From: Halobacteriovoraceae bacterium
Lineage (GTDB): Bacteria > Bdellovibrionota > Bacteriovoracia > Bacteriovoracales > Bacteriovoracaceae
Reading direction: 5' to 3'
DNA: 64,000 nucleotides
Assembly (NCBI GenBank): GCA_002713145.1
Contig: PAVS01000011.1
Coordinates: 62,001-126,000, forward strand
Notes under the pieces: model-generated
Database searches by the model: none
The model's input: only the letters and a program-made list of their open reading frames with translations
Told to the model about the DNA's origin: nothing
Translations under genes and position numbers: made by a program
In this document: positions 43,711-53,584 of the stretch, in pieces
How positions within the stretch are numbered: the first letter of the stretch is position 1
Layout of the letters: each line of letters begins with the position of its first letter

Positions 43711-45105
43711 ATGTGTAAAAGAATATTTATTTTTTTCTTACTTTGTCCGCTTGTGAGTTTTAGCTCCTGGCGAGATGCGGAAAAGACTTATGACAGCAGA
43801 CTATCGAATTCTGAATTAAGAAATATAGTTATAGAATTGGTCAAAGATAATTATGTTTTTTCAGCACTTCCTTGGATGAAAGAGTATTTGATCAAAGACA
43901 CCAAGCAACTTGATAGAAGAATCGATTCTGCCTTATCCCATATGATTTCAGTGGCCGGGACAAAACAATTTGAAACACTGCCTCTGAGATTTTTAAAACG
44001 TTCTAAGTCTGATAATATGCGTTTTATTATTGCCAAAAAATATTTGAGAGATAACGACTATTCTCGGGCCCTCAATTACCTAGAAAATATCAGCTCAAGC
44101 CATGAAGTGTTTCCTTATGCAGTTCATATGCAAGCGACCATCTATACGATTATAGGTGATACGAAAAAAGCTGATAAACTCTTTGATCGCTGTCGAACGG
44201 CGAGTGAATCACAGATTAGTCGTGATAAAAAATCGAGAAAATTAAAAATGAATAGAGATTATTGCATGGCCGGTAAAGCGCGAGCTGAGTTTAAAGATCG
44301 CAATTTTGATAAATCAGATCTGCTCTATCTCGATATTCCTAAATCCTCTCCCGTATGGCCTGAAATCTTATTTGAGGAAGCTTGGAATAGTTATTATCAA
44401 AAAAATTATAACCGTGCTCTAGGTAAGCTTGTGAGTTATAAAGCCCCTGTCTTTAACCATATGTTTAACCCAGAGATCGATGTGCTCCGTGCTCTGAGCT
44501 ATATGAAGCTTTGTCTATATTCAGATGCAAAATCAGTGGTGCAAGAGTTTTACGATAAATATTATAATGATGCTAAATCACTGAGGCTTTATCTCTTACG
44601 ACATAAAAGAGAAATTAATCATTTTTATAATAGTATGATGAATTATGAGAGTCGCTCTAAGAGTGAAAATTCTCTGCATGCTCTCATGTTAAAAAGTGTA
44701 TTAAACGAAGAAGCCTTTATTGATTTAAAACGACAGTTTGTCAGTGCCTCAAAAGAATACGATCGATTGAGACAAAGACCTAACTCACGATTCAAAAGAG
44801 CGACCATACTCAATCTTCAAGAAGCGATTGTGACTCAGAAAAGAATACTAGGAGCCTTTGTAAAACAAAGACTGCTCTATCATTACGCCACTTTATCCAA
44901 AGCTTTTGAGGGGATGAGTTATATTAATTTAGAAGTTTTATCTCAACGAAAAGCTAAGCTTTACTCTTTTGATGAAAACAATCGCTCTCGTGGTGATATT
45001 AAATATATAGAAAGAAATGAAAAGCAATACTTTTGGGATTTTAACGGTGAGTTCTGGGCCGATGAACTTGGTGATTATGTTTTTGCTTTAAGGTCGGAGT
45101 GCTAG
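43711..45105 (+). CDS. Exported TPR-like repeat protein
   Basis: The 464-residue protein starts with a signal peptide ('FIFFLLCPLVSFS'). It contains helical repeats with TPR-like spacing ('AKKYLRDNDYSRALNYLENI', 'LFEEAWNSYYQKNYNRALGKL', 'DVLRALSYMKLCLYSDAKSVV'). A basic, Arg/Lys/Ser-rich C-terminal region follows. It probably lies in the periplasm as a scaffold. It is 19 nt downstream of the barrel gene and 3 nt upstream of the next TPR gene. It could correspond to one of the TPR Glt proteins; the exact counterpart is not clear. Confidence 0.75.
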   Translation: MCKRIFIFFLLCPLVSFSSWRDAEKTYDSRLSNSELRNIVIELVKDNYVFSALPWMKEYLIKDTKQLDRRIDSALSHMISVAGTKQFETLPLRFLKRSKSDNMRFIIAKKYLRDNDYSRALNYLENISSSHEVFPYAVHMQATIYTIIGDTKKADKLFDRCRTASESQISRDKKSRKLKMNRDYCMAGKARAEFKDRNFDKSDLLYLDIPKSSPVWPEILFEEAWNSYYQKNYNRALGKLVSYKAPVFNHMFNPEIDVLRALSYMKLCLYSDAKSVVQEFYDKYYNDAKSLRLYLLRHKREINHFYNSMMNYESRSKSENSLHALMLKSVLNEEAFIDLKRQFVSASKEYDRLRQRPNSRFKRATILNLQEAIVTQKRILGAFVKQRLLYHYATLSKAFEGMSYINLEVLSQRKAKLYSFDENNRSRGDIKYIERNEKQYFWDFNGEFWADELGDYVFALRSEC

Positions 45106-45108
45106 AGA

Positions 45109-47952
45109 ATGAAAATTTTTGTTTTATTTATATTATTAACCACATCCCTTTTCGCTAATGATATTGAAAAGCGAAGGAATCAAATCCTTCAAATCGTTGA
45201 TGAAGAAATCAGTGAAGTTTCACGTTTGATGCGATCAACAAAGAAGAATCCTGATCTTATGCTGAGAATGGCGGAGTTGTATTTAGAAAAAGCCAGACTC
45301 TGGCGGGAACGAGAAAATCAACGTTATTTAAATGTTCCTATAGAGCAAAGAAGAAAAACGAGCAAGAGTAGATATTTTACTCAGAGTAATAAATATTTTA
45401 ACCAAGCGAATAAACTCTGCTTAGATATCGCTCGCAATTTTAAAAACTATAATAGACTCGGTGAAGTTTATTATATCTTAGGCTTTAACGCGAAAGAGTC
45501 TAATAACCCTAAGAGAGCCTCCCGTTATTTAGGGATTGCAACAAAAAAGACTTCGGATCCAGCAACTCGAAATAAAACAAAAGTGACCCTCGCCGAAGTT
45601 TATTATAATGAGAAAAAATATAAGAGGGCCATTCCTCTGTATGAAAGTGCTCTTGATAAAGCAGTAGATAAATGGTGGACCAAAGATGCGTTCAATCTCG
45701 CTTGGTGTTATTACCAAGTCGGACAAAAGTCTAAGGCCATTGATCTTATGAAAAAAGTTTATTCTCGCTCTGAGAATTCAAGATTTATCGATATGCGAAA
45801 TGATGTGAGACGTGATTTGGGGCTCTTTTACGCCACGTCTGGCAAAGTGGATGAAGGGGTAAGATTTTATAAATCCATTGGACTGGATCTCTCCGATAAG
45901 CTTATTTTTATTGCTGGCTCTCTTATGCAACAAGGTCAATTTGATAAAGCTGAAGAAGTCTATAATGAAGCCTATAAATTTGAAAAATCGGATCAAGGTA
46001 AAATAAAGATCCTTATTGATAAATTGCAACTCTATGAGAAAGCGACAAATCTTGGTGCCCATCAGGTAACCAGTCGGGCCCTCTATAAATATGCAAGAGA
46101 AAAGCAATTAAACTCGGATCAATTGAAAGTATTTAAATTTCAACTAGAAAAAGTCTCAGCCATTCTTCAGCGCCAAGTTATAGCTAAAACTTACAGAAGA
46201 CTTCCGAAAAAGAGACAGGAAAAAGCAAAACAAGCGATTGAGTATTTTGAATATCTCAGCCAACTTGAACCCAAAAGAGCTGATGAGTTTAAATTTTTAA
46301 AAGGGGAGACAGCGTTTGCTGCCAAACTTAATAAAGAAGCTTATCAATATTATAAAGAAGCCCTCCTTGTCAGTGAGAAACTTCCAGGGGCAAAATTTAA
46401 AGCCAAATCCATTGAAGGAATGTTGGCGGCAATTAGCTTGAGAGAAAATAAAACCACAAATAATGCGATCGAAACTTTTGAGCTCTATTTGAGAAATTGG
46501 AGTTCAGGAAACAAAGCCAAGGGGATTTATCCTAGATTATTTAATAATTATATGGCGAAAAACGATTATGCAGGTGCCAAGCGAACCCTTGATCGTTACA
46601 CTAAAAACTATCCCAAAGATTATAAAACTCAAGAGGCGATGATCGCAAAATTAATGGATGAAGATCGTAAAAAGAAAAATAATGATAATTTACGAGCATG
46701 GATTGCCATGATTGATGCAGGAAAGTATCAGGTGAGCCCTAAATTTAGAACCAAGTTAAAAGAACTCCTCACCACCTTACAAATTGAAGATGTTCAGCAA
46801 GACCTTAACAAAGGTAATAAGCGCAATGCTCTCGTTGGATATCTGGCGATTCTTAAAGATCCTTATAGCACCAAACGCAGTAAAATTAATGCTAAATATA
46901 ATCTGTCTGTGCTTTATTTTGAACTTGATGACACTAAGAATGCCTATAAGTGGTCAATTGAAGCGATGAAAGAGATGGAGAGCAAAGACGTGGTGCAATT
47001 TGCTGATTCCTTTATCACCATCGCTAATTATCTCTTTATGGCCTTGGAATTTAAAATGTCTGCCAATTTATCGGAAAATTTTATTTATAAAATATGTTCT
47101 GTAAAAAATAGTAAAAAAGATATCTCTTTTAAAAATGCTATTTTTATCTATCTTGCTGATCATGATATTGAATCTGCAAGAAGGCTGCATGATAAAGCGA
47201 GTGAGTGTAAAATTAAAAAATCCACTCGTGAGCTAGCCACATTTGAGTTAATGCGAGCTTATAAAGATAAAAAAATGTGGCAAGAGTATGAGAAGTTTGT
47301 TGAAGAGCTGGCCAAGACTAAAAATTACAAAGCTAAAATGATCGATGAGTATTTATTCTTATCAGCTCTGGCTAAACAATTTGGAAATGCGGCGAAAGAA
47401 ACAACATTTAGAAACAATGCCCGCAATCTTTATTTTTATGCTAAAAAACGCAAGGAATCTGTGTCTATGGATGCCTTGGATTATTTTGCTTCTTATGAAG
47501 TGCTGAAAATGAAAAACACTGCACAAGAAGTAAAAAATATTGAATACGCCTTTCCTGAAAAAGTCTTTCAATCGCGACAAGAGCAAAAGTTAAAATTATT
47601 GGAAAAACTGACAGGCCAGGCTTCAGAAGTTCAGGCCATCGGTTCTGGAGTGGGTATTGTGAATTCATTTAAAATCTTACACGACACTTATCTAGATGTG
47701 GCTAAAGACTTATTTGCCTTTACCCCCAAAGATAAATCTCCTGAGTATATTCAAGCTTTTAAAAAGGATATGAATACCCTTGGGGAGCAAATCAAGCAAG
47801 CTGCCAATCAATATAAAAAAGAAGCAAAGCGAGCGATTGAAAATAATGAAATTTTAAATACAAATAATTTCTACTTTCAAGAGACTCAGTATCCCGTGCG
47901 TTATTTTGGAGGTGGAAACACCCTGATCATGGATAGAGGAGGTAAACAATGA
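45109..47952 (+). CDS. Large periplasmic TPR protein (AgmK/GltI-like)
   Basis: The 947-residue protein has a signal peptide ('FILLTTSLFA') and an almost unbroken series of TPR-type helical hairpins from residue 40 to 850 ('EVYYILGFNAKESNNPKRAS', 'AFNLAWCYYQVGQKSKAI', 'KYNLSVLYFELDDTKNAYKW'). It resembles the very long TPR periplasmic proteins of the Myxococcus gliding complex (AgmK/GltI) but is shorter than AgmK. TPR arrays bind partner proteins, so it probably spans or scaffolds the periplasm. Its stop overlaps the start of the next lipoprotein gene by 4 nt. Confidence 0.8.
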   Translation: MKIFVLFILLTTSLFANDIEKRRNQILQIVDEEISEVSRLMRSTKKNPDLMLRMAELYLEKARLWRERENQRYLNVPIEQRRKTSKSRYFTQSNKYFNQANKLCLDIARNFKNYNRLGEVYYILGFNAKESNNPKRASRYLGIATKKTSDPATRNKTKVTLAEVYYNEKKYKRAIPLYESALDKAVDKWWTKDAFNLAWCYYQVGQKSKAIDLMKKVYSRSENSRFIDMRNDVRRDLGLFYATSGKVDEGVRFYKSIGLDLSDKLIFIAGSLMQQGQFDKAEEVYNEAYKFEKSDQGKIKILIDKLQLYEKATNLGAHQVTSRALYKYAREKQLNSDQLKVFKFQLEKVSAILQRQVIAKTYRRLPKKRQEKAKQAIEYFEYLSQLEPKRADEFKFLKGETAFAAKLNKEAYQYYKEALLVSEKLPGAKFKAKSIEGMLAAISLRENKTTNNAIETFELYLRNWSSGNKAKGIYPRLFNNYMAKNDYAGAKRTLDRYTKNYPKDYKTQEAMIAKLMDEDRKKKNNDNLRAWIAMIDAGKYQVSPKFRTKLKELLTTLQIEDVQQDLNKGNKRNALVGYLAILKDPYSTKRSKINAKYNLSVLYFELDDTKNAYKWSIEAMKEMESKDVVQFADSFITIANYLFMALEFKMSANLSENFIYKICSVKNSKKDISFKNAIFIYLADHDIESARRLHDKASECKIKKSTRELATFELMRAYKDKKMWQEYEKFVEELAKTKNYKAKMIDEYLFLSALAKQFGNAAKETTFRNNARNLYFYAKKRKESVSMDALDYFASYEVLKMKNTAQEVKNIEYAFPEKVFQSRQEQKLKLLEKLTGQASEVQAIGSGVGIVNSFKILHDTYLDVAKDLFAFTPKDKSPEYIQAFKKDMNTLGEQIKQAANQYKKEAKRAIENNEILNTNNFYFQETQYPVRYFGGGNTLIMDRGGKQ

Positions 47953-48842
47953 AAATTTTATTGATGCTCACTTTATCATTTCTCGTGGCCTGTAGTTCAG
48001 CTCCTAAAAAGAAGCAGTCTAAAAAAGTTGAAGATATCAAACAAGATGACTTTAAACAAATAAAGCTCGTGCCTTATGATCAACGAGATGATTATTTCGC
48101 TCAAGTGAAAAGTAAATACACGGAAATTTCGAATACCGAAAGCTTGGGACGTGTTTATGAATTTGATGGAGAAGTTGAACTCAAAGGTGTCTTAGGAAAA
48201 ATCACTCAACTCTGTTATGAGAAAGAGTTTAAAACTGCTGAAATTCTTATATCAAAAAATAATAAAAGTTATGCTAAAAACCCCATGTTTTGGAATATGG
48301 TAGGTTCTTGCTATTTGCTTCAAGATAAGCGAAGAAAAGCTCTTCTTTTTTACAATAAAGCTCTGGCCTTGAAAGCTAATTATGCCCCGGCCCTTAATAA
48401 TCTCGGGGTGATGTACATGCGAGAGGGAGATTATTCCAGGGCCTTAGTTGCCTTTAAAAAAGCCAAATCCTCGAAAGAATATAGCCGAACCCCTCGCTAT
48501 AATTTATCTCAGCTTTACTTGAACTTTGGTCTTTATAAACAAGCGGGGCAAGAACTTACAACTCTTTATTCACTTAGTCGTGATGATATTGATGTCCTTA
48601 ACATGTTGGCCACGGCCTATCTCATGAGTAATAATATCAAGGAGTCTCTCGATGTTTATTTAAGAGTGGATAGAGATTTCTTCGAAGATCCAAAATACGG
48701 TATTAATTTTGCTCTCGCTCATTATTTCTCGGGGAATAAGGAGAGAGCGGTTGATGTGATGGAAGACATCGATAAGGATAAACTCGGTGTTTGGAAAGAA
48801 TACTATTATGATGCTGCCAGACATATAGGAGCAGATATATGA
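47949..48842 (+). CDS. TPR lipoprotein (AglT/GltE-like)
   Basis: The 297-residue product has the lipoprotein signal MKILLMLTLSFLVAC (lipobox LVAC) and a Lys/Ser-rich tether. At least four TPRs follow ('FWNMVGSCYLLQDKRRKALLFYNKAL', read as pieces; 'APALNNLGVMYMREGDYSRA'; 'TPRYNLSQLYLNFGLYKQAG'). In Myxococcus, AglT is an outer-membrane TPR lipoprotein of the gliding machine; position and architecture agree. It overlaps both neighbours by 4 nt (ATGA), so translation is tightly coupled. Function by analogy only. Confidence 0.82.
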   Translation: MKILLMLTLSFLVACSSAPKKKQSKKVEDIKQDDFKQIKLVPYDQRDDYFAQVKSKYTEISNTESLGRVYEFDGEVELKGVLGKITQLCYEKEFKTAEILISKNNKSYAKNPMFWNMVGSCYLLQDKRRKALLFYNKALALKANYAPALNNLGVMYMREGDYSRALVAFKKAKSSKEYSRTPRYNLSQLYLNFGLYKQAGQELTTLYSLSRDDIDVLNMLATAYLMSNNIKESLDVYLRVDRDFFEDPKYGINFALAHYFSGNKERAVDVMEDIDKDKLGVWKEYYYDAARHIGADI

Positions 48843-49090
48843 AAACTATTTTACTTTTATGCCTTATTTTTACCACCACAAGTTTTGCTCAAAGCAGAAA
48901 AGCTCGGGTAAGATTTGAATATAAAAAGTATGAGCGTTTTGACTTTGATGCTCTTGATGTTGAAGGAAGCAGACCTTCACCTGGTGAACTCTCTATTCCC
49001 ACACGAATGCAAGGTAAACACAAAAATAAGTTACCGGAGCGTAAGAATTTTAATCGTGAGATGAAAAGAGCGATCGATACAGTTATTTAA
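48839..49090 (+). CDS. Small exported protein of the motility-type cluster (83 aa)
   Basis: A signal peptide (cleavage after 'TTTSFA') leaves a mature protein of about 65 residues, highly basic at both ends. A central 'FDFDALDVEGSRPSPGEL' motif recalls short periplasmic proteins in Myxococcus gliding loci (CglF-type), but I cannot confirm the match. The ATGA overlap with the upstream TPR lipoprotein and the 14-nt gap to the FHA gene show it is an integral part of the operon. Confidence 0.75.
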   Translation: MKTILLLCLIFTTTSFAQSRKARVRFEYKKYERFDFDALDVEGSRPSPGELSIPTRMQGKHKNKLPERKNFNREMKRAIDTVI

Positions 49091-49104: not shown

Positions 49105-51129
49105 TTGGAAACTCAATTACCAAATTCAGAAAATTTATTTCAACTTATTTCACTAGATAAAAGTGTGAAGACGACTGGTGGAGTGTTGCGAGTCGGACGC
49201 TTTTTAGTGGGACGCGCAGAGAGTTGCGACATTATTGTCCACTCTGGAGTTGTTTCTTCTGTTCATGCCGTTGTCGAGGTCACCCCCACAGGTCTTAAAA
49301 TTTATGACATGAATTCTAAAAACGGTACTTATATTGGGAAAGAGAAAATTGTAGCTAGAGATGTTCATGTGGGGGAAGTGATATCTTTGGGAAATATTCC
49401 TTTTAAACTAGAACGTTATCAAGTTGAACAGGCCCTTCCTCCAGTGCTTGATGCCCTTGATCCTGTGAAGGGAGATGCTTCTGTTTTTAAAACGATGCCA
49501 TCCCCACCACCTTTAGAGAGCTCTGCTCCTCCAGCTGCGACACCAGATCTGCCTAGTGAAACTCCAAAAGTCACTCCAAGGCAATCGGATGAGGAAATCC
49601 CTTATATTGTTTACCCTTTATCGGCTGATCCCAACTCTGACTATTCAGAATATATTTTTGAAGATAAAGATCAACTCTATCCCATCTTTAAATATGAGAT
49701 CAATAAAAATGCGGTCGAGATAATCATTTTGCATAAAGATAAGGTTTACTCTGTGGATTATCTTCCGGATAAGAAAGCCACCTATGAAATCGCGGGGGCA
49801 AGAAAGTCTAAAAAAGCTAAAGATGTGGAATTTCCTTATTTAGGAAAAGAAGAGAGGATTCCTTTTATTGAAATTCAAGCGGGGAACTGCGTGGTTCACC
49901 AATTGCACAAATATGAAATGCTCTATCTCTCTGACAATAGCGTTAAAAAAGCCAGTGATGGTAGAGTTAACTTGCAAGAAAATGATATTGTAAAATTATC
50001 CAGTGGAGATTTAGAGATCTATGTGAGACGAGTTCCAGCTCCTCCCAAAGTGAAGCCGGCACCTTTTTTTAGAAGAGATCAACAACTAAAACGTTATCTC
50101 TTTTTAGTTTTTCTTATGGTTTTTTTACCGCTGGTCAGTCTCTACCTTTACCCTGTTGATAAGGAACTTCTCAACGAAAAAGATCCAGAGCGTATTGCCA
50201 CCATTCTTTATAAACAAAAACTTAAGGTGAATACGAATAAAACCGTGGCCCAGTCTGAGAAGAAAAAAGCAGTTAAACAAAAATCAAAACAGAAAAAAGT
50301 GTTAAAGAAGAAAACAGTTCAAAAAACACAAGCAACACCACAGAAATCTACGGCCAAAAAAACACCGACTAAGGATCCTGGAACTAAGACAGCTCCGAAA
50401 AAACAAGTGGTGAAACGAGTGAAAGATCCTAAACCAAAATCTGATCAAAAAGCAAAAGACTCTTCGAAGTCAAAGGCGAAATCAGCTCAAAAAAGAAGCC
50501 AAAGGCGTTACTCGCGAACGAATCTTAAGAGCCCTGGAAAGGTGGACACTTATAAATCGATGAATTTTAAATCAACTGTAAGTTCACTGATGGCCAAAGG
50601 TGGCTCACTCAGTGGAGCGAGAACAGCTCGCACCGACAGTGGGATGGCCATCAATAATGCTGGAGTTCAAGGGGGAGGTGTTGTCGAGACAGCAAAAACC
50701 GGAACTCAAGTGGGATCTCTTACGGGAGGAACAGAAGGTAAACTCGCTGCCACTCGAGGAAGTGAGGGGCTTACCAATAAAACTGGTGTCTATACTGCAG
50801 GGATTCCTTCTGAAACAGTTGTACTCGGTTCAATGGACCCTGATGTCATTAGAAGAATTTTACGAGAACATATTCCACAATTTAGATCATGTTATCAAAA
50901 AGAGCTCAATCGCAACTCTGCTAATATCTCTGGGCAAATCAGACTGGTCTTTACCATTGGAGCCTCTGGAGCGGTCTCGAGAGCGGGAGTTGATGGCAAC
51001 AGTTCACTCCCAGGTAATGTCAGAGGATGTGTGGTGAATGTGCTGAGAGGAATACAATTTCCAAGTCCACTTGGAGGAGGAACCGTCGATGTTAAACAAC
51101 CATTTAACTTCTATCCGAAAAGAATATAG
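49105..51129 (+). CDS. FHA-domain, single-span, TonB-like protein (PglI/GltG-like)
   Basis: A TTG start at 49105 (AAGGA upstream) is the only start available before the domain; the product is 674 residues. An FHA domain (about 20-100: 'LVGRAESCDIIVHSGVVSSVHA', in two halves; 'NSKNGTYIG') faces the cytoplasm. A second beta-rich cytoplasmic domain (about 165-310) precedes one membrane span ('YLFLVFLMVFLPLVSLYLY', about 333-351). Then come a roughly 100-residue Lys-rich periplasmic linker, a Gly/Ser/Thr-rich stretch, and a C-terminal AgmX/PglI-type TonB-like domain ('HIPQFRSCYQKEL', 'GQIRLVFTIGASGAV'). In Myxococcus GltG and GltJ of this design couple the Agl motor to outer parts. Confidence 0.88.
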   Translation: METQLPNSENLFQLISLDKSVKTTGGVLRVGRFLVGRAESCDIIVHSGVVSSVHAVVEVTPTGLKIYDMNSKNGTYIGKEKIVARDVHVGEVISLGNIPFKLERYQVEQALPPVLDALDPVKGDASVFKTMPSPPPLESSAPPAATPDLPSETPKVTPRQSDEEIPYIVYPLSADPNSDYSEYIFEDKDQLYPIFKYEINKNAVEIIILHKDKVYSVDYLPDKKATYEIAGARKSKKAKDVEFPYLGKEERIPFIEIQAGNCVVHQLHKYEMLYLSDNSVKKASDGRVNLQENDIVKLSSGDLEIYVRRVPAPPKVKPAPFFRRDQQLKRYLFLVFLMVFLPLVSLYLYPVDKELLNEKDPERIATILYKQKLKVNTNKTVAQSEKKKAVKQKSKQKKVLKKKTVQKTQATPQKSTAKKTPTKDPGTKTAPKKQVVKRVKDPKPKSDQKAKDSSKSKAKSAQKRSQRRYSRTNLKSPGKVDTYKSMNFKSTVSSLMAKGGSLSGARTARTDSGMAINNAGVQGGGVVETAKTGTQVGSLTGGTEGKLAATRGSEGLTNKTGVYTAGIPSETVVLGSMDPDVIRRILREHIPQFRSCYQKELNRNSANISGQIRLVFTIGASGAVSRAGVDGNSSLPGNVRGCVVNVLRGIQFPSPLGGGTVDVKQPFNFYPKRI

Positions 51130-51541
51130 TTTTCTTTTGGTCCTGGTGTTATGTTTCTCATGTAGCACCAGTCCGAAAAAACTGACTAAGAAATCATCCC
51201 CCCAAGCTCGGGGTGATAGCTGTGTCAGCGATCATAATTATGCAGAAGAGAAATACTTAACGACTGCGGCCAAAGCTCAGGCCAATATTTTAGCCCGTTG
51301 TTTTAAAAATTACTTACAATTTGAAGAAGACAAAAATCAAGAGATCAAAATTTGTAACACCCTGACTGTGCAACGTTCAGGTAAAGTGACATTTGTACAT
51401 ACCAGGGGCTTTAAAGGGGATCGCTTACCTAAAGATCTCAAGATGTGTATGGAACAAGAGTACTGGAAGATGAATTTTGCTCGTATGCAACTGGACAGAC
51501 GCTATACAATTCGCTTTCCTATCCATTTTAAATCTCGTTAA
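51089..51541 (+). CDS. Lipoprotein with TonB-like AgmX/PglI-type fold
   Basis: The ATG at 51089 has GGAGG eight bases upstream and lies within the last codons of the FHA gene (41-nt overlap in another frame). The 150-residue product has lipobox CFSC (signal 'EYSFLLVLVLCFSC'), a Lys/Ser tether, and a domain with the same landmarks as the C-terminus of its neighbour. 'ILARCFKNYL' parallels 'FRSCYQKEL', 'TLTVQRSGKVTFV' parallels 'VFTIGASGAVSRA', and a second Cys 'LKMCMEQ' parallels 'VRGCVVN'. It is probably an outer-membrane-anchored copy of the TonB-like domain. Function unknown. Confidence 0.75.
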   Translation: MLNNHLTSIRKEYSFLLVLVLCFSCSTSPKKLTKKSSPQARGDSCVSDHNYAEEKYLTTAAKAQANILARCFKNYLQFEEDKNQEIKICNTLTVQRSGKVTFVHTRGFKGDRLPKDLKMCMEQEYWKMNFARMQLDRRYTIRFPIHFKSR

Positions 51542-51563
51542 TCTTACATTCAAATCTTTAAAA

Positions 51564-51586
51564 GGGTCAAAATGCACTTTTGACCC
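51564..51586. promoter_or_regulatory. Perfect inverted repeat overlapping a promoter -35
   Basis: GGGTCAAAA-TGCAC-TTTTGACCC, a 9-bp stem with a 5-nt loop, 22 nt after the lipoprotein stop. Its right arm contains the TTGACC -35 of the promoter that follows. On the minus strand four T follow the hairpin, so it could also end the motor operon weakly. Confidence 0.55.
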
Positions 51587-51608
51587 GGATCTGTCTCCAT
51601 GCTAATTT
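51580..51608 (+). promoter_or_regulatory. Strong sigma70-type promoter in the convergent gap
   Basis: TTGACC (51580-51585), 17-nt spacer, TAATTT (51603-51608) preceded by TGC. It points into the gap before the convergent ExbD genes, with no annotated large gene downstream on that strand. Confidence 0.6.
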
Positions 51609-51639
51609 AAACTCTTGGGGAGAATAAAGGACTGAGACT

Positions 51640-51723
51640 TTGTATAAGCTGATTGTTTTTTATTCATTTTTGATCGCTTCAATGATTGTATCGAAGCTAC
51701 TGTTAGATCAGTTTCTGATGTAA
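51640..51723 (+). CDS. Possible 27-residue single-span membrane peptide
   Basis: A TTG at 51640 follows AAAGG by nine bases. It opens a 27-codon frame ending at TAA 51723, four bases before the stop of the convergent ExbD gene. The peptide is one hydrophobic helix ('LIVFYSFLIASMIVSKLLL') with a Lys at the start and Lys/Asp near the end. A well-formed promoter lies 31 nt upstream. Alternatively the transcript is a small RNA antisense to the ExbD gene. Too short to judge by coding statistics. Confidence 0.35.
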   Translation: MYKLIVFYSFLIASMIVSKLLLDQFLM

Positions 51724-51726
51724 GCT

Positions 51727-52248
51727 CTAATCTTCTTCGCTTAGAACGACGAATTTATAAGTCTTAAAACCCGCCTCAGCACAAGTGTACATGATTTTTT
51801 TCACATAGCTGTACTTTAACGTTTTATCAATGATGAGATTGGCCACCCCAGAGAATTCTTTGGCAACATCAGGTTCTTGACGGTTAAGAGTTTTAATCTC
51901 TTCTACTTTTTTAACCAGGTTATTGTAAAGAGGGTTGATAAGCCTTCCCCCATGGCCATAGACATTTTTATTATCATCAGTGGCTTCGAAAATAGTCTCT
52001 GAATCTACCCAAATTTTATCTTTGGATACTTGGATCATCACCCCGGCACTATTGAGAGAATCGGATTTAGAGTAGGGAAGTTTAATCTCTTTGGGTACTT
52101 CAACGGTGATCCCAGAGGAGTTATAAGATTTAAGTAAAAAAACCAGAAGAATAACCAAAATATCTAAGAGAGAAGTGATATCGATCTCAAAGTGTCTATT
52201 CTTTACGTGTCTTTGTTTTTTGTTTCTAATACTTCGTTTTCTAGACAT
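51727..52248 (-). CDS. ExbD/TolR-type motor protein (second copy)
   Basis: The 173-residue protein has a basic cytoplasmic N-terminus ('RKRSIRNKKQRHVKNRH'), one membrane span with the conserved Asp ('EIDITSLLDILVILLVFLL'), and a periplasmic domain. ExbD/TolR proteins form proton-conducting stators with ExbB/TolQ. It is the last gene of an exbB-exbD-exbD operon, 1 nt after its neighbour. The one-TolQ, two-TolR arrangement is like Myxococcus AglR-AglQ-AglS, the gliding motor. Confidence 0.9.
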   Translation of the reverse strand: MSRKRSIRNKKQRHVKNRHFEIDITSLLDILVILLVFLLKSYNSSGITVEVPKEIKLPYSKSDSLNSAGVMIQVSKDKIWVDSETIFEATDDNKNVYGHGGRLINPLYNNLVKKVEEIKTLNRQEPDVAKEFSGVANLIIDKTLKYSYVKKIMYTCAEAGFKTYKFVVLSEED

Positions 52249-52249
52249 A

Positions 52250-52792
52250 TTAACTCATTATGTTTCCAAAAATAATTTTATGAAAGAGAAAGCGGACTTG
52301 AACATCAATCCCATCTTTGTCTTTTTTAAACATAGTTTCATCGGTATTTCTAAGTTTTCGAGTGGCATCCATGATGAGGACAATTTCCTCATAACTCAAA
52401 TCTGCTTTGGGCTCCAAGATAACTTGTTCTTCCCCCAAGTTTTGTTTTTTAATTTTGACCAGCTCGTTGTGAAGAGTATCTAAGTCATACTCACCTTCGA
52501 TATTACGAACTTCGATATTTCTATCTTTAGTTCCACCTCTTGAGTTCTGGAGCTGAACAAGAATATTATTTTTGTTGATGACCAACGTCAGCATAAAAGG
52601 TGGCTTATCATCTTTAGGGGGAGGAGTCGTTGACACTATAGGCACGTCTGAGCCAATCTCAAAAATTTTTACAAACTGAGTAGACATAAGTAAGAAAAAT
52701 ATAAAGATAAAAACCGCATCCAGAATAGGAATAAGATTGATTCCCTCTTCTGTACGCTTCGCTTTTCTGCTTGTTGGTGTTCTATAGGCCAT
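52250..52792 (-). CDS. ExbD/TolR-type motor protein (first copy)
   Basis: The 180-residue protein has a short basic N-terminus, then 'INLIPILDAVFIFIFFLLM' with the proton-carrying Asp in the single span, and a periplasmic region with 'VQLQNSRGG' and 'DLSYEEIVLIMDATRKL', a TolR/ExbD C-terminal pattern. It should pair with the ExbB protein just upstream (9-nt gap) and the second ExbD downstream. The periplasmic domains of the two ExbD proteins differ considerably, so they probably bind different targets. Confidence 0.9.
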   Translation of the reverse strand: MAYRTPTSRKAKRTEEGINLIPILDAVFIFIFFLLMSTQFVKIFEIGSDVPIVSTTPPPKDDKPPFMLTLVINKNNILVQLQNSRGGTKDRNIEVRNIEGEYDLDTLHNELVKIKKQNLGEEQVILEPKADLSYEEIVLIMDATRKLRNTDETMFKKDKDGIDVQVRFLFHKIIFGNIMS

Positions 52793-52801
52793 AAGTATCT
52801 C

Positions 52802-53455
52802 TTATTCAGATTTCTCTTTCGTTCCTAATAAATCTAAAAGCTTTACACTAAATTCATCTATTTCATTGATGATTTTATCTGCTTTCGAGCTAAGGAAAGC
52901 ATGAAGAATCATAATGGTGATAGCTGCTGATAGACCTAAGAAAGTCGTATTCATCGCAGTCGAAATACCTTCTGCCAGGATCTGAGCTTTTTGAGCAGGG
53001 TCAACATTAGCAACTGCGCTAAATGATTTCATAAGACCTTGGATGGTCCCGAGAAGACCAAAAAGAGTTGAAATATTAGCAATAAGTTGTAAATAGTTTA
53101 AACGTAGCTCAACTTTAGGCACCACTTCTAAGGCGGAAGCGTCGAGAGCATTTTGAATTTGCTCTGTTCCTTGATTGGCACGCTTGAGTCCATTTTTTAA
53201 AACACGTGGCAACGCTGCTTGTGTTCCAGAGCAAACTCTAATTGCCCCTTGGATATCATTCGATAAAACGTATCTTTGAATCTCATTCATAAAAGAAGGA
53301 CCATCAACGTCATAATTTTTTGATAATTTTTTGAATCTCTCTAGAGCGATCGCAATACCGACTCCCCAAATCACAAGAATAACTCCCATGAATATTCCAC
53401 CTGCCTGAATAAAGGCAGATATTTGCATCACTAAATTGGCTTCATTACCTTCCAT
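52802..53455 (-). CDS. MotA/TolQ/ExbB proton-channel protein
   Basis: I choose the ATG at 53455, which has GGGAG five bases upstream; a GTG at 53467 would put that sequence inside the gene. The 217-residue product has three membrane segments: residues about 10-30, 'LRLNYLQLIANISTLFGLLGTIQGLM' (in two pieces) and 'GISTAMNTTFLGLSAAITIMIL'. The TolQ/ExbB hallmark 'LLGTIQGLMKSF' is present. It forms the ion channel with the ExbD proteins. Its closeness to the FHA/TonB-like cluster supports an Agl-type motor. Confidence 0.92.
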   Translation of the reverse strand: MEGNEANLVMQISAFIQAGGIFMGVILVIWGVGIAIALERFKKLSKNYDVDGPSFMNEIQRYVLSNDIQGAIRVCSGTQAALPRVLKNGLKRANQGTEQIQNALDASALEVVPKVELRLNYLQLIANISTLFGLLGTIQGLMKSFSAVANVDPAQKAQILAEGISTAMNTTFLGLSAAITIMILHAFLSSKADKIINEIDEFSVKLLDLLGTKEKSE

Positions 53456-53584
53456 GTCTACTCCCACTTAAAGGTTGAATTATTATTAAAAGTATTTACT
53501 TACTATTGTAAGCTATTATTATTCCGAACGATACAGTTAATTTCTGCCTATTTAAGTACGTGAGAAAATGAGTTGGTTAAAAAC

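Follow-up and report, generated by a model that had tools for sequence, protein, structure and literature searches.

Motors of the ExbB/ExbD type power gliding, envelope maintenance and nutrient uptake. The described machine closest to the locus discussed here is the Glt-Agl core complex of Myxococcus and Bdellovibrio, whose gene table, in the available part of the source, gives GltF, of 89 residues, as its smallest protein and nothing of the size of the 27-residue peptide described below (PMC3169522). A proteome study of Bdellovibrio, in its available part, ties different gliding clusters to the entry and exit phases (PMC12546842), which makes stage-specific control of such machinery plausible. 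No mention of an extra helix or of a small protein was found in a cryo-EM paper on the Ton and Tol motors (PMC12215075). Our literature search yielded no small membrane protein of the Glt/Agl machine, a result that does not in itself prove absence from print. To our knowledge, no small accessory helix has been described for the Glt/Agl branch.

The window analysed here is a stretch of 64,000 nucleotides from a Halobacteriovoraceae bacterium, a marine relative of predatory bacteria, in which two gene sets of a gliding-type motor flank a small open reading frame that, judged from its sequence and that of its relatives, is almost certainly a real gene. As in the Myxococcus and Bdellovibrio core complex, so far as the available part of that source describes it (PMC3169522), GltC-, GltF- and GltG-like proteins are encoded together with one ExbB/TolQ-family and two ExbD/TolR-family proteins, and the locus is of the Glt/Agl gliding type in having a GltG-like FHA/TonB-type protein near an ExbB and two ExbD proteins. 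On the plus strand lie a GltC-like TPR protein (43711–45105; NF033756, E 3.9e-26, below the equivalog cutoff), a long TPR protein that is GltD-like by place only (45109–47952; TPR matches), a TPR lipoprotein that is GltE-like by place (47949–48842; TPR matches, and NF033758 at E 1.6e-4, below cutoff), a GltF/CglF-like small exported protein (48839–49090; NF033764, E 1.4e-5, below cutoff, and operon place), and a GltG-like protein with an FHA domain and an AgmX/PglI C-terminal domain (49105–51129; NF033760, E 1.4e-37, below the equivalog cutoff; NF033768, E 1.5e-20; FHA, E 8e-14). Because the cutoffs are missed for GltC, GltE, GltF and GltG, these neighbours are relatives and not certified members of the respective families. 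Converging on them from the minus strand are an AglS/AglQ-like ExbD/TolR-family motor protein (51727–52248; PF02472, E 1e-14), a second protein of that family (52250–52792; PF02472, E 8.6e-13) and an AglR-like ExbB/TolQ-family motor protein (52802–53467; PF01618, E 9.6e-26). Among named records, those matching ExbD are metagenome assemblies: two carry the label Halobacteriovoraceae, two Oligoflexia and one Bdellovibrio sp. Elsewhere, in the same-genus genome G003, a GltF-like frame of 83 residues, a frame of 458 residues and an ExbB-like frame are clustered (L138, G003:C607), suggesting that this genome has an additional Glt-type set.

The gap between the two convergent gene groups (51542–51726) holds, all on the plus strand, an inverted repeat, a sigma-70-type promoter, an AAAGGA and a TTG frame. 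The initial annotation had pointed to a Shine-Dalgarno-like AAAGG and a TTG frame for one hydrophobic helix, and both are indeed in place: AAAGGA (51626–51631) stands with its AGGA 8 bases 5' of the TTG at 51640, and the frame (51640–51723) runs through 27 codons, encoding MYKLIVFYSFLIASMIVSKLLLDQFLM, to a TAA at 51721–51723. Its end is near the ExbD stop as had been stated, the distance being three bases before the triplet at 51727 and not four. The window copy starts with TTG and the other nine known copies with ATG. In G021 (L008) a Shine-Dalgarno match was not found near the ATG, and the peptide there may begin at a TTG four codons further 5', for which a GGGGGA is better placed. All ten peptides carry K3 and a hydrophobic stretch of 15 residues from position 4, which is in each case the best 15-residue Kyte-Doolittle segment (mean 2.26–3.20) and is long enough for a membrane helix; they share the motif M-x-K-L-[IV]-x-[FI]-Y-[ST] ahead of the remainder of that stretch, most have a basic residue near position 19, and their C-terminal part shows hardly any conservation. 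With high probability, as far as such features can tell, the product is an inner-membrane protein. Curated families gave no match when the window and G002 peptides were compared with Pfam and the G002 peptide with NCBIfam.

The case for a gene is carried by the relatives, whose loci were located by ExbD search. Four further genomes in which a lipoprotein gene adjoins exbD (G001, G002, G012 and G021) were picked by gene order alone, and each has in the gap a frame of 26–30 codons at the corresponding place, in the same orientation. Further carriers were found later (G018, G074, G077, G148 and G149), G148 being picked from the matches of a degenerate DNA pattern for such peptides and then confirmed; that search, whose matches in 62 of 129 genomes were mostly noise, also led to loci L066, L069 and L074, and most of the other loci it added were chance frames. 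A profile HMM built from the ten rows places the peptide family in 10 of the 129 genomes of the host's family, each at E <= 2e-9 (2.7e-10 for the window copy), the next-best match in these genomes having E 1.3e-3, and no further genome with a peptide at E <= 0.001 was found among 368 of the phylum. This count is circular for the ten rows themselves, and what is informative is the gap to the next match and the absence elsewhere.

Substitutions in these loci follow the reading frame. For the five loci chosen by synteny only, the BLOSUM score of the translated alignment was 2.61, as against 0.49 +/- 0.35 for permuted columns and 1.39 +/- 0.21 when permutation preserved codon positions, with 0 of 5000 permutations matching the observed value in either case; for all ten loci it was 2.44 against 0.43 +/- 0.29 (0 of 2000). 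Over codons 3–9 of the ten loci, pairwise differences at the first, second and third codon positions were 0.28, 0.00 and 0.48. The initial annotation had named conservation of the frame and synonymous-site bias as its touchstones, and frameshifted frames beside a hairpin conserved on its own as the pattern that would speak against a gene; the ten loci present the reverse of that pattern, the frame being kept in all ten and the pairing of the hairpin not. The recurrence of both the frame and its promoter geometry in nine further genomes is more than chance, and since the small frame and a switch of its own are kept in ten related genomes, its product probably belongs to the motor machine as a genuine small component or regulator.

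The peptide gene also has a constant companion. Directly 5' of it, and last in the Glt-type operon, is a gene for a lipoprotein-like protein of 150 residues (51089–51541, plus strand), the C-terminal half of which is similar to the tail domain of GltG/AgmX (NF033768 at E 2.9e-4, short of its cutoff; hhalign against the GltG tail, Prob 84, E 7.6e-6). The gene looks like a stand-alone version of that domain and, apart from one distant match, is found only in the same clade. Matches to it occur in 11 of 129 genomes, and in 10 of the 11 the peptide gene lies directly 3' on the same strand; the eleventh, in G062, is that distant match (31%, E 2.6e-9), in an unrelated neighbourhood and without the peptide. 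In nine of the ten carriers, Agl-type ExbB/ExbD/ExbD genes converge on the small frame. The tenth, G018, has the lipoprotein gene and the peptide on one contig and exbD on another with other neighbours, so that the peptide goes with the Glt-type operon, and with the lipoprotein gene at its end, and not with exbD. Genome G003, of the same genus as the host, shows neither the lipoprotein nor the peptide, in a draft that is 80% complete and whose exbD is truncated by the end of a contig.

In a 42-tip tree of AglQ/AglS-type proteins (FastTree, midpoint root, 42 of the available loci; G148, with its cut exbD, was left out), nine carriers group as a single clade with support of 0.991. At the outgroup locus L088 the end of gltG lies about 50 bases from exbD, and the lipoprotein and peptide genes thus look like an insertion between the two. 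Two loci of other family members (L010 and L018) have a different, longer frame resembling a membrane protein between a gltG-like gene and exbD, and the gltG-exbD gap seems to be a place for lineage-specific membrane genes.

The gap was said to contain a promoter of the form TTGACC-17-TGC-TAATTT, and this description is accurate: the -35 hexamer TTGACC (51580–51585) and the -10 hexamer TAATTT (51603–51608) are separated by a 17-base spacer ending in TGC. The accompanying claim that it is one of the best promoters in the window stands in part; it ranks 15 of 127,928 in a weighted scan that combines weights, spacing and an extended -10 bonus, the weights being textbook-like and set by hand, and is absent from a 9-of-12 consensus scan, its -10 matching TATAAT at 3 of 6 bases. 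A -35/-10 pair with a spacing of 16–17 lies at the aligned place in all ten loci. The start codon follows the -10 at a distance of 29–33 bases in nine of them and of 18 in G149, and G001 has another pair that outscored the aligned one. No sigma-54-type site was found upstream of the peptide gene in the ten genomes. Near the start of the gap is a CTTACA box (51543–51548, plus strand), which stands 18 bases 5' of the sequence YCAAAATGCAC and recurs in relatives, at exactly this distance in 5 of 10 genomes and with other spacings or as variants in the rest.

The -35 is embedded in a palindromic element (51564–51586). It had been described as lying inside a perfect 9-bp inverted repeat, and the arms GGGTCAAAA (51564–51572) and TTTTGACCC (51578–51586), on either side of TGCAC, do pair at all nine positions, with the -35 in the right arm. 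Such a repeat in a convergent gap could be no more than a minus-strand intrinsic terminator serving the exbB-exbD-exbD operon, the promoter match being coincidence: read on that strand, the 9-bp stem and 5-base loop are followed by TTTTAAAGATTT, with a TTTT after the stem, and on both strands the fold scores better than those of most shuffled sequences (z -2.51 and -2.8, which is modest). The relatives argue otherwise. Pairing of the arms falls to 3–8 of 9 in the other carriers, and the tail has 0–4 T among its first eight bases in the nine genomes with exbD adjacent and 6 of 8 in G018, so that across the relatives an intrinsic terminator is not recognised, although a lenient scan passes the window copy alone. 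What persists is sequence, YCAAAATGCAC, loop included, being kept at the corresponding position in 7 of 10 genomes (with a one-base shift in G074, and in divergent form in G012 and G148), together with the aligned downstream promoter in all ten. We therefore rejected the terminator as the main explanation, neither pairing nor tail being kept, and regard it as unlikely; an RNA-structure reading of the repeat was rejected on the same two counts, and its fold z-scores are modest. With pairing lost and sequence kept in most genomes, the element looks like a protein-binding site overlapping the -35.

A near-identical element occurs a second time, upstream of a gene for a DksA/TraR-like C4 zinc-finger protein, in the same-genus genomes G000 (that of the window), G001, G002 and G003 (L145, 2065–2220 in G000:C1; L147; L144; L141). 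Searched with at most one mismatch, CAAAATGCACTTTTGAC has 22 matches in 129 genomes against 9 for a reversed control: five belong to the peptide gene, four are the sites ahead of the DksA/TraR-like gene, three are in or across open frames (G003, G077 and G149), and the remaining 10 are in other genomes, in neighbourhoods outside the analysis. At the DksA/TraR-like gene the element is followed by a sigma-54-type pair of a TTGGCA box and a TGC box, 84 bases from start to start in G000 and G001 and also visible in the sequence of G002 and G003. Orthologues in G012, G018 and G149, and a second copy in G000, have the sigma-54-type site, and the element was not found upstream of them. Just before the element of this gene in G000 is a gene with a FliG_C domain (PF01706, E 1.5e-19), and G001 has a similar frame in the corresponding position. 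Wider searches for a regulon stayed near background with a 17-mer at up to three mismatches in the own genome (19+18 matches against 13+17 for the reversed control), and mostly so with a 15-mer in 14 genomes. The half-site presumably resembles that of FleQ. One regulator, perhaps an enhancer-binding protein, might act at both promoters and cover the -35 of the peptide promoter, which we offer as a lead from the sequences and not as a result.

The promoter could also serve to drive an RNA antisense to the 3' end of the exbD transcript, with the frame incidental or secondary. The stop of the small frame lies only three bases from that of ExbD and, as no plus-strand terminator was found in 50500–52800, a transcript may run on antisense to exbD. 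Codon-wise substitution tells against this account, as does G018, which keeps gene and promoter with exbD on another contig; that the peptide there stays with the lipoprotein gene while the motor genes are elsewhere argues against a purely antisense role. The initial annotation, which had offered an antisense RNA as its alternative, is thus weakened on this point by G018, an overlapping antisense transcript being possible in the other nine genomes, and as the principal function we hold antisense action to be quite improbable.

In size, single helix, basic N-terminus and convergent transcript the frame resembles type I toxins. That the hydrophobic peptide is such a toxin with an antisense regulator is nevertheless very unlikely, given a single strong match in each genome, its conserved location and its restriction to one clade, an N-terminal motif conserved beyond hydrophobicity alone, and no dedicated antisense promoter identified.

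The reading that we prefer, a membrane protein with a promoter of its own, is in line with the initial annotation as far as a small membrane protein goes, since frame, promoter geometry and regulatory element are all kept in relatives; that it regulates the ExbB/ExbD motor, as proposed there, is conjecture. On this reading 51640–51723 would be a protein-coding gene for a single-helix membrane protein of 25–30 residues, which would have arisen or become recognisable in one Halobacteriovoraceae-type clade, together with the lipoprotein gene, between gltG and the Agl-type motor genes. Since a sigma-70-type promoter of its own precedes it, with a putative protein-binding site across the -35 region, the gene could be switched independently of the Glt operon. 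The peptide would most likely insert in the inner membrane, its N-terminal lysine facing the cytoplasm. As a regulatory or accessory subunit it may bind a membrane helix of the Glt/Agl complex (in GltG, in a partner of the lipoprotein or in the ExbB/ExbD stator), much as AcrZ or KdpF act on their complexes. Translation, topology, the partner and an activating or repressing action at the element are what we infer. We consider this explanation as a whole probable, and the peptide is likely to serve the Glt/Agl machine; direct action on the ExbB/ExbD stator, as opposed to GltG or the lipoprotein, is possible but doubtful. The wider picture, in which a separately regulated Glt/Agl micro-subunit shares its regulator with the sigma-54-dependent DksA/TraR-like gene and the motor is tuned by supplying or leaving out one small helix at some point in the predatory life cycle, is speculative and rather unlikely to hold in full.

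Set beside the known systems, the element is like the enhancer sites of bacterial enhancer-binding proteins of the FleQ/NtrC type in being a CAAAA/TTTTG palindrome upstream of a sigma-54-type promoter at the DksA/TraR-like gene of four genomes, and unlike them at the peptide gene, where it overlaps a sigma-70-type -35 and a sigma-54-type promoter was not found. From the Glt-Agl complexes of Myxococcus and Bdellovibrio, as covered by the available part of PMC3169522, the locus differs in its small lipoprotein and its peptide, which are specific to one clade of this lineage. A 27-residue membrane protein that is conserved beside such a motor and has a promoter of its own would provide a readily testable handle on the assembly or switching of the motor, and its frame exemplifies a gene that length-based annotation would miss. 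The machine and the phylum differ from those of AcrZ, KdpF, MgtS and MgrB, and likeness to these proteins was judged by Pfam and NCBIfam only, with no match; in build, and as far as the available part of PMC11539335 describes them, the peptide is nonetheless of their kind, having fewer than 50 residues, one hydrophobic helix, a gene beside a large membrane complex and, possibly, a control of its own.
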